The translations under genes were made by a program, and so were the position numbers. Positions 20,683-47,107 of a DNA stretch of 54,678 nucleotides are shown piece after piece. This stretch comes from a virus: the IMG/VR virus record IMGVR_UViG_3300008450_000050, positions 1-54,678 of that record; one strand, 5' to 3'. The number at the start of each line of letters is the position of its first letter. Within the stretch, counting starts at the first letter, position 1. The notes under the pieces are model-generated. The model did no database searches. It saw nothing but the letters and a program-made list of their open reading frames with translations, and had not been told where the DNA came from.

Positions 20683-20711
20683 TTAGTAGCGGAGAATGGG
20701 CCGGCGGTCTA
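20683..20711 (-). promoter_or_regulatory. Late-type promoter, copy 3
   Basis: On the minus strand TAGACC (20706-20711), 17 bp, TACTAA (20683-20688), then TGTGCAGCGTGG. The -10 box and the next 12 bases are almost identical to the promoters at 39832 and 47079, while the -35 is one base from TTGACC. It would start transcription near 20677, toward the gene at 20573. Confidence 0.75.
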
Positions 20712-20823
20712 GATGTTGTGGGCCTAGAAGGGCGCCTGACTGGATTATCCGCGCCCTTGGCTGATCTGACCGTGGCGTAAATCACCGCCTTGTGGTTGAG
20801 TATCGCAAATCAGGAGGTGAGCG

Positions 20824-21240
20824 ATGCGGGCTGTATTGATTGTGCTGGTGGGGCTGGGGTTGGCGGGATGCGTCGCCCGCGCAGAGGACCAGGCCGCATG
20901 GCGAGGTCGCCCGGTTTCCGATCTACAACTTCACCCCGTCTTCGCGACGATGAAGCTCGTTCGCACGCGCGCCGACGACGGAACAGAACTGTGGAACTTC
21001 GTGAATGGCCGGCAGGTGTCGTCCTGTTCCGGCGATGGCATTGTGTTCGGCGGCTATCTATCCACCGTCCAATATTCGCAATTCACGTCCTGCATGAGCG
21101 GGCAGGCCGCGTGTAACAACATCTTCTACGTCAAGGGCGGGCGTGTCTTGGACTATGTTCCGACAGGCTCCGGCGGCGCCGGCTGCTACACCGATGACCG
21201 AACCCGGCCCGGCTTCCGTGGCGCGACGAACTTCTTCTGA
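20824..21240 (+). CDS. Lipoprotein of the rightward islet, 138 aa
   Basis: ATG 20824 with a strong AGGAGGTG site. The signal sequence RAVLIVLVGLGLAGC ends in a lipobox LAGC. The mature part (VFATMKLVRTRADDGTELWN, SSCSGDGIVFGGY, FTSCMSGQAACNNIF) has several cysteines and looks like a folded outer-membrane lipoprotein. It is transcribed against the surrounding late genes, the usual sign of a moron expressed from the prophage. Superinfection exclusion or surface change are plausible but unproven. Confidence 0.75.
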   Translation: MRAVLIVLVGLGLAGCVARAEDQAAWRGRPVSDLQLHPVFATMKLVRTRADDGTELWNFVNGRQVSSCSGDGIVFGGYLSTVQYSQFTSCMSGQAACNNIFYVKGGRVLDYVPTGSGGAGCYTDDRTRPGFRGATNFF

Positions 21241-21455
21241 TGCGCGCCTCGATCCTCTTTCTTGCTCTAGCGTTGTCCGCCTGCGGCAAGCCGTTGCCCG
21301 TGCCTAGCGCTTATACGGCGTCACCGCCCGTCGTTGGCGAACCACTGAGCGCCGACGAACTAGACCTGCAAAACCGGGTCGCATGCAACCTCAGAGGGCT
21401 AACGGTGGATAACCCTAAGTTTGAAGCGTGCCTGCGCGAAGAGGCGGGGCTTTGA
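21240..21455 (+). CDS. Small lipoprotein, 71 aa
   Basis: ATG overlaps the stop of the preceding lipoprotein gene. Signal RASILFLALALSAC with lipobox LSAC, then a proline-rich stretch and VACNLRGLTVDNPKFEACLR. A second lipoprotein in the same operon suggests a partnered envelope function. Confidence 0.7.
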   Translation: MRASILFLALALSACGKPLPVPSAYTASPPVVGEPLSADELDLQNRVACNLRGLTVDNPKFEACLREEAGL

Positions 21456-21694
21456 TGGTCGATTTTGACGCGATGAAATCACAGGAGCGGGAAGAGCGCA
21501 TCGCCTATGAAAAGAGATCAACCCGGAGGAAAGAGGTGGCCGGCCTGCTCTTGTTTGTTATCCCTGGCGCACTCCACTGGTCAGGACATGGGGAGCTAGC
21601 CCCTTATGCGTTCACCGCGATGGCGGTCTATCTCCTATCCATCATAGTTGACGACCATGTCCACCGGCTCAACAAACGGATCGATGACCTTTGA
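21455..21694 (+). CDS. Membrane protein, 79 aa
   Basis: ATG 21455 overlaps the previous stop. A charged N-terminal helix (MKSQEREERIAYEKRSTRRK) precedes two hydrophobic spans (GLLLFVIPGALHW and APYAFTAMAVYLLSIIV). Probably an inner-membrane partner of the adjoining lipoproteins. Confidence 0.65.
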   Translation: MVDFDAMKSQEREERIAYEKRSTRRKEVAGLLLFVIPGALHWSGHGELAPYAFTAMAVYLLSIIVDDHVHRLNKRIDDL

Positions 21695-21834
21695 AGCGCG
21701 CAGCGTTGACGGCAACGTTGGCCGCAGGGCTCCTCCTGTTACCGGACCCCTACGGGTTTGGGCTCCTGCTCTTCGGCGGCTACTGGCACTTGGCCGCCAA
21801 GAACGCCCGACCTGACCGGTATTTGCGCTGGTAG
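21691..21834 (+). CDS. Small hydrophobic protein, 47 aa, TTG start
   Basis: TTG 21691 in a TTGA overlap with the upstream stop. The product (RAALTATLAAGLLLLPDPYG, FGLLLFGGYWHLAAK) is a hydrophobic hairpin-like peptide. Its end overlaps the convergent ejection-protein gene by 96 bp. Supported by the overlap and hydrophobic pattern only. Confidence 0.45.
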   Translation: MKRAALTATLAAGLLLLPDPYGFGLLLFGGYWHLAAKNARPDRYLRW

Positions 21835-46729: not shown

Positions 46730-46798
46730 GCGTGTAGCGCTCCCGCCCGCCTTGCGGCTAAGGCCATCCCTGAGGGAGGTGCAAAAAGCGCTACACGC
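46730..46798 (-). promoter_or_regulatory. Branched hairpin element in the late leader
   Basis: A perfect 12-bp helix, GCGTGTAGCGCT (46787-46798) with AGCGCTACACGC (46730-46741), encloses two smaller hairpins, TCCC-TCA-GGGA and CCTT-6-AAGG. It lies between the terminator at 46864-46892 and the first late gene. A cis RNA element, antiterminator or packaging (pac) signal are all possible. Confidence 0.6.
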
Positions 46799-46863
46799 CT
46801 TGACGCCCTAACCTCACGCGGGAAAGGAACCGCGCGAGCCTTGAACCGGCAGCGCCGGAATGC

Positions 46864-46892
46864 AAAAAGCCCCCGCCGATGTGGCAGGGGCT
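46864..46892 (-). terminator. Intrinsic terminator in the late leader
   Basis: On the minus strand AGCCCC-T-GCC, loop ACATC, GGC-G-GGGGCT, then TTTTT. About 180-210 nt downstream of the predicted start of the 47.1-kb promoter, like a lambda tR' placed after pR'. Confidence 0.88.
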
Positions 46893-47072
46893 GGGCTGCA
46901 CCTCACTCTGTGCAGCATGGATTTGGCAGGGGCGCCCGGAGATTTTCACCCTGTCTTATGCCGCATGGTGCACCACGCGAACACAGAAGCCGAACACGGC
47001 CATAGGCGACCCATAAAGCCTGATGCCGAAGCAGAGCAGGAACGCAATCTCTAGTGGCGCAAATCGCCACAC
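46893..47072 (-). ncRNA. Untranslated late leader, possible small RNA
   Basis: From the predicted start near 47072 to the terminator there is no gene with a ribosome site. A hairpin CTGCAC-8-GTGCAG lies at 46897-46916, repeating the TGCAC core of the promoter's start region. If readthrough is regulated, the default product would be a small RNA of about 200 nt. The rest of the 405-bp gap (46703-47108) holds only the terminator, the branched hairpin and the promoter. Confidence 0.4.
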
Positions 47073-47078
47073 TGCACA

Positions 47079-47107
47079 TTAGTAGCGCGGGCGGCTGAGC
47101 GGGTCAA
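47079..47107 (-). promoter_or_regulatory. Late-type promoter, copy 1
   Basis: On the minus strand TTGACC (47102-47107), 17 bp, TACTAA (47079-47084), then TGTGCAGTGTGGC. Best match to the sigma-70 consensus of the three copies. It begins right after the stop of the last replication-operon gene and reads toward terminase. Confidence 0.85.

Follow-up and report, generated by a model that had tools for sequence, protein, structure and literature searches.

Genome organization and the three compound promoters

The window, meaning the whole stretch of DNA analysed here, is a 54,678-base virus contig from IMG/VR. The gene content indicates a temperate, podovirus-like phage, and its host is probably alphaproteobacterial. 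The early operon runs leftward from approximately 53.8 kb to 47.3 kb and encodes a DnaA-like HTH protein, RusA, a methyltransferase, and a replication protein, with the gene for a 192-aa protein as its last member (Table 1). The order that follows is P1, terminase, TROVE protein, P2, portal, major head protein, ejection and tail genes, P3, and finally the lipase-like and endolysin genes, where P1, P2, and P3 denote three late promoters. P1 lies approximately 210 bp past the gene for the 192-aa protein and ahead of the terminase. Since it lies between the early operon and the terminase, P1 occupies the position of lambda pR', while P2 precedes the head block and P3 precedes the tail/lysis block.

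The large terminase comprises 872 aa, as compared to approximately 500 in its relatives, and contains Intein_splicing and LAGLIDADG domains, corresponding to an intein with a homing endonuclease. The protein encoded at 40972–42303 (minus strand) is TROVE/Ro60-like (PF05731; phrog_850). Just upstream of its gene, positions 42344–42455 (minus strand) match the YrlA Y-RNA-like family (RF02553) with 48.3 bits, which is below the gathering score of 69; the protein and this RNA form a probable phage Ro–Y RNA pair. An exonuclease, a GmrSD-N domain protein, and a REase-like MTES_1575/DUF559 protein are encoded at 15275–16522 (minus strand), 9397–10296 (plus strand), and 49453–49980 (minus strand), respectively, and are possibly DNA-processing or defence-related.

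Table 1. Positions of the promoters, terminators, transcripts, and genes in the window
Feature	Coordinates	Strand	Details
P1 promoter, before terminase	47079–47107	−	−35 TTGACC 47107–47102; 17-bp spacer; −10 TACTAA 47084–47079
P1 start block	47067–47078	−	TGTGCAGTGTGG; −10-like CAGTGT 47074–47069
P1 full element	47107–47067	−	
P2 promoter, before tRNA-Thr/structured RNA and portal/capsid block	39832–39860	−	−35 TTGATT; 17-bp spacer; −10 TACTGA 39837–39832
P2 start block	39820–39831	−	TGTGCAGAGTGG; −10-like CAGAGT 39827–39822
P2 full element	39860–39820	−	
P3 promoter, before tail/lysis block	20683–20711	−	−35 TAGACC; 17-bp spacer; −10 TACTAA 20688–20683
P3 start block	20671–20682	−	TGTGCAGCGTGG; −10-like CAGCGT 20678–20673
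P3 full element	20711–20671	−	
T1 intrinsic terminator	46868–46892	−	10-bp stem, TTTTTG; kept in L002; ~205 nt into P1 transcript
T2 intrinsic terminator	39518–39539	−	stem and T run; same stem in L008; ~308 nt after presumed start
T3 intrinsic terminator	20196–20216	−	stem and T run; ~480 nt after presumed start
P1 leader RNA (pR'/6S-like), apparently non-coding	46893–47071	−	fold z −2.3
tRNA-Thr (TGT), first product of P2 transcript	39716–39790	−	
Putative structured RNA of 167 nt, tRNA to terminator	39546–39712	−	conserved; closed by TCGTGCGG/CCGCACGA
108-aa ORF, first gene of P3 transcript	20247–20573	−	conserved in G001
Last gene of the early operon, encoding 192 aa; candidate anti-terminator (Q/GafZ-like)	47318–47896	−	directly before P1
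Early protein with DnaA domain-IV HTH (Bac_DnaA_C)	51118–51780	−	PF08299, E 2.3e-22
Late genes behind T1	42591–46412	−	
Terminase small subunit	45193–45606	−	
Terminase large subunit	42591–45209	−	with intein
Integrase	6456–7508		
Repressor-like gene	53871–54182	+	

The compound promoter, T(T/A)GA.. -17 bp- TACT(A/G)A-TGTGCAGNGTGG, occurs in exactly three copies, all on the minus strand. Its 18-mer core, searched with up to three mismatches, was found three times in the window, whereas 100 dinucleotide shuffles gave a mean of 0.09 and a maximum of 1. When both strands of the window were searched for the whole geometry (T[TA]GA..-17-TACT[AG]A-4-.A...T), only P1, P2, and P3 were returned, and the coordinates and 17-bp spacings given for three near-identical sites in the original prediction are correct. 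The conserved block also covers the final 3–5 spacer bases (CCGC/CGCGC). Because the region upstream of the −35 is not common to the three sites (4–6 of 17 bases shared), the common element extends from the spacer end to approximately +5. A good −35 is present at P1 only, the −10s are poor at all three promoters, and a generic sigma-70 scan lists none of them. Hexamers this weak by consensus suit, and do not prove, a regulated promoter. Four bases past each −10 lies CAGNGT (.A...T), a weak −10-like match that has A and T at both critical −10 places and begins unusually early, at approximately −2.

A site over the −10 and the start would be ideal for repression, and the phage carries a repressor-like gene. 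The block could therefore be an operator at which the phage repressor, or some other early protein, shuts off the three late promoters in the lysogen. We consider this very improbable, since the block lacks evident dyad symmetry and no copy of the 18-mer lies at the early/repressor region, where a repressor operator is expected.

The motif search in related phages identified orthologous sites in two related contigs, with the block kept. P1' and P2' in G002 (L008/L131) and P3' in G001 (L088) are located at the same places as in the window. The P1 ortholog, at 1954 in L002/L008/L131, has an identical −35 (6/6), −10 (6/6), and start block, with 3/12 identities in the first 12 spacer bases, and the P2 ortholog is at 6795 in L008. 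Across the three ortholog pairs, every −35 base is identical (6/6), the last five spacer bases are 5/5 identical, and the −10 and start block are identical at 18/18, 15/18, and 17/18 positions, while the first 12 spacer bases agree at 3/12, 5/12, and 7/12. These 12 bases also differ between P1, P2, and P3. Hexamers held at a fixed spacing despite a diverged spacer are as a sigma-70 promoter predicts, and the conservation of the orthologous sites argues for P1–P3 as real promoters. The motif is carried by three contigs in all; the three sites occur together only in the window, and the other two contigs are fragments. Exact-pattern matches to L001, L003, and L092 in the viral collection were rejected as chance occurrences within a DnaB-type helicase gene of AT-rich phages, and the tail gene at 21739–23883, used as bait, found no relatives.

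A continuous conserved block of 18–20 bases could also be read by a phage RNA polymerase or a phage sigma in place of host sigma-70. This explanation is hardly credible, as no such gene is present among the proteins scanned and the −35 hexamer at 17 bp is kept in all ortholog pairs.

Terminators and short transcripts

Stems with T runs were found downstream of all three promoters, as had been predicted. T1 and T2 are kept in G002, and at T3 in G001/L088 the stem sequence is changed but the hairpin and T run still form. The P1 leader is strongly conserved between the window and L008 and has no match in the phage collection, in which the matches to the P2 region are essentially tRNA genes.

The 167-nt RNA of the P2 transcript matched no Rfam family and is nearly identical at L008 6926–7092. 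Its closing stem (TTCGTGCGG/CCGCACGA) before the terminator recurs in the leaders of L099 (8849) and L100 (1643), where the interior is different and shorter, and GCCGGTATCAAGCCCGGC recurs in L099. At the place of the tRNA-Thr, L008 (~6835–6920) contains a tRNA-like stretch with a possible Ser anticodon CGA and no ARAGORN call. The 22-base terminator hairpin AGCCCGCCCTAACCGGCGGGCT occurs twice, at 54212–54233 (plus strand) after the repressor-like gene and at T2 (39539–39518, minus strand).

An RNA signal at the start of each transcript had also been proposed. A promoter-proximal signal of this kind would give terminator readthrough, like the put RNA of HK022. Hairpins with the 5' arm GUGG can be drawn in all three transcripts but are not better than shuffles (p = 0.32, 0.50, and 0.05), and unlike in HK022, no common two-hairpin element was seen among the three leaders.

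Downstream of each promoter come a short product (leader RNA; tRNA and structured RNA; 108-aa protein) and then a terminator, and P2 in particular yields a tRNA and the conserved 167-nt RNA. This arrangement would also fit three self-contained, moron-like promoter–product–terminator units, with a promoter of common descent and without late regulation. We regard such an origin as distinctly unlikely, because P1 is exactly at the pR' place with a Q-position gene ahead of it, and the footprinted conservation of the start block exceeds the needs of a constitutive promoter. Self-contained units are nevertheless compatible with late antitermination, as the lysogen state of the promoters.

The last early protein and its distant homology

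The 192-aa protein has no Pfam match and no PDB sequence match, and the sole PHROGs match of its family is phrog_15385, which has no functional annotation. Approximately 20 further viral contigs encode family members, as do two Rhizobiales genomes and Rhizobium phages, RHph_Y25 among them, and in roughly 20 related phages the gene directly precedes a promoter. The search of bacterial genomes with the single sequence returned none, and that with the family alignment returned the two Rhizobiales loci. The earlier statement that no Q-like protein is recognisable therefore holds for the Pfam, PHROGs, and PDB sequence searches, but not for the profile and fold comparisons, which pointed to DUF6456 and Q21.

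The predicted models have a pLDDT of 70 for the window protein and 78 for its L097 ortholog. Upon re-alignment to the PDB, the L097 model ranked Q21 in its loading complex first (6p18_Q, Z 4.8, 90 residues, rmsd 3.9), a Z that is low for a helical protein, and five sigma-factor chains (sigma region 3/4) matched its C-terminal third. For the window protein model, Q21 and AlpA occupied ranks 2 and 3 with similarly low Z values for a helical protein (4.0 and 3.9, respectively). Foldseek alone gave no PDB match with E below 0.001.

DUF6456 proteins also appeared in the viral-model search. Twelve DUF6456 domains, one of them confirmed as PF20057, were combined in a profile (A4), and its hhalign comparison with the A2 family profile yielded a score of 32.9 (P 1.7e-4) over 113 colinear columns, against no more than 19.5 among 150 column shuffles and 11.2 for the reversed profile. 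With A3, the score was 24.7 versus 18.4 in the controls. The hhalign probability was only 49% with A2 and 8% with A3, and 0/14 family members match at the PF20057 cut-off. From these profiles, we read the homology between the 192-aa family and DUF6456 as real but remote. GafA homologs carry the DUF6456 annotation (PMC9638019), and the family search found DUF6456 in Caulobacter vibrioides. By these two ties, the former to GafA through the literature and the latter to Caulobacter, DUF6456 probably includes GafZ. GafZ is an experimentally supported anti-terminator that works with polymerase and Nus factors, has its element within a sigma-70 promoter, and is homologous to the C-terminal part of GafA (PMC11150451). 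The N-terminal part of GafA is DnaA-like (PMC6363796). The phage encodes a separate early DnaA-HTH protein, which is a possible GafY-like partner; such proteins may have other roles.

The gene for the 192-aa protein had been named as one candidate for a regulator. Its position before P1, the DUF6456 profile match, and the weak Q21 fold match agree with this choice, and on sequence and model evidence the product is a good candidate for a Q-like regulator, its regulatory role being predicted.

The same sigma-like C-terminal fold, together with the weak −10s and the weak −35s at P2 and P3, would also suit a mechanism acting at initiation. The block would then be bound by an activator or by a factor that contacts sigma, either the DnaA-like protein or the 192-aa protein, which switches on three weak promoters, and the terminators would be ordinary ends or partial attenuators. 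P2 and Mu regularly have distributed late promoters with a common site: one recognition site, for Ogr and C, respectively, is shared by several late promoters. Their site, however, lies upstream of the −35 and acts by activation, whereas the upstream region of the phage is not common to P1–P3. GafY, in turn, activates approximately 18 promoters (PMC11150451). We nonetheless find activation rather unlikely, since no conserved site exists upstream of the −35, a classical activator would be badly placed over the −10/+1, and the promoter–terminator–late-gene order of the wider family would be left unexplained.

Proposed late antitermination and elements in the wider family

The reading that we favour, with slightly more belief than doubt, is a distributed Q/GafZ-like late antitermination loaded at the three promoters. 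In a more specific and tentative form, a GafZ-related anti-terminator is loaded via an element over the −10/start instead of the spacer, in a lambda-like scheme with three transcription units, including one that opens with a tRNA and a conserved RNA. P1, P2, and P3 would be sigma-70-type late promoters, with each short transcript ending at its own intrinsic terminator. Once the early operon is on, its last gene product would be made, would recognise the block over the −10/start (CCGC-TACTRA-TGTGCAGNGTGG), and would engage the polymerase there, perhaps at a sigma-dependent pause on CAGNGT. The polymerase would become resistant to T1, T2, and T3, allowing transcription of the terminase, head, and tail/lysis genes. 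We infer the DNA recognition, the pausing, and the antitermination by the 192-aa protein. Late gene expression probably depends on readthrough at three stop signals, not one.

Lambda late control spread over three sites, as the original prediction had it, agrees with the pR'–tR' anatomy of P1, the conserved sites, and the gene order in the wider family; induction and readthrough are predicted. Several observations weigh against antitermination by the 192-aa protein. The Z of 4.8 is weak, the two hhalign probabilities are low, and there is no Pfam hit. Furthermore, the first 12 spacer bases, where the canonical Q/AlpA/GafZ element sits, are unconserved, CAGNGT is poor as a −10-like sequence and starts early, and the products ahead of T2 and T3 could be self-contained units.

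The arrangement at P1, in which the last early gene is followed by a promoter, a leader of approximately 200 nt, a terminator, and the late genes, resembles the Q–pR'–tR' regions of lambda, 21, and 82, and Q21 is, with a low Z, the best fold match of the candidate in the model of the L097 ortholog. The phage differs from these systems in having three promoters, not one, in the position of the block over the −10/start, not in the spacer, and in a 192-aa protein without sequence similarity to Q. Two signals are required by Q proteins and AlpA: a promoter binding element and, within the initially transcribed region, a −10-like sequence at which sigma retains the polymerase (PMC9371919). The window lacks a Q-type recognition element in the spacer, of which only the last 3–5 bases are conserved. 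AlpA of Pseudomonas aeruginosa is likewise an antiterminator with a promoter element, a −10-like sequence, and a downstream terminator, but its ABE, GGGACG, is at −25 to −20 (PMC9371919), where the phage spacer is unconserved. The likeness to GafZ/GafYZ of the Caulobacter gene transfer agent and to GafA of Rhodobacter lies in the DUF6456 profile match and the sigma-like HTH, and a region with the −10 and start site is reported to be bound by GafA (PMC6363796). GafZ differs in having one target promoter with the element between the −35 and −10, and the similarity of the candidate to GafZ/DUF6456 is remote, below Pfam detection. The chief departure from the known systems is thus a conserved block over the −10/start and the last few spacer bases, not in mid-spacer.

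The proposal offers an unassigned early-protein family of alphaproteobacterial phages (phrog_15385 and relatives) a function that can be tested, namely late antitermination, and links the same family to GafA/GafZ, which regulate gene transfer agents of presumed phage descent. It also presents a phage in which several promoters may be under Q-type control, through an element placed differently from that in the characterised Q-type systems compared here.

The closer relatives of the candidate gene, L099 and L100, contain TTGAC., TACTG(A/C), and the start block within approximately 30 to 180 bp of the gene end, followed by a hairpin with a T run, a leader, and a second terminator. L099 keeps GCACTACTGATTTTCAGATTGG, which is 18/22 identical to P2, and the other has a weaker version. 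As the TTGAC box there is 20, not 17, bases from TACTG, a −10 displaced by three bases is possible. Among the 21 loci of Rhizobium-type relatives, some of which are the same record twice, 18 carry TTGC..-17-TA.... at the gene's 3' end, with the conserved element CAAATCAG in the spacer. The full pattern, including GATATT four bases past the −10, is present in 13/21 loci, and five further loci have TTGC..-17-TA with CAAATCAG without a GATATT-like element; L135 and L137 match only through unrelated sequence, and L143 has no match. Only 13 of 3210 background windows, the sites themselves included, carry the full pattern. The element is read in two different frames among the phages with the 17-base spacing kept, which points to selection on the DNA, not the protein. 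A simple scan detected downstream terminators in several, not all, of these loci. No second copies of the promoter element were found in G003, G004, G005, G007, G010, or G012, with the limit that G010's own element has one extra base and is missed by the second-copy pattern; the multi-copy element was seen only in the clade of the window.

Two variants accompany the Q-position gene in other members. In L138, the gene is followed by a promoter and then by a sequence resembling the 3' part of a tRNA (GGTCGCCGGTTCGAATCCGGCCCGCTACACC), as at P2. In L145, L147, L149, and L153, the 3' end of the gene contains two AAATCA repeats that flank GTTGG at a separation of approximately 21 bases and may form a two-site binding element, and a consensus TATAAT follows the repeats in two of these members.
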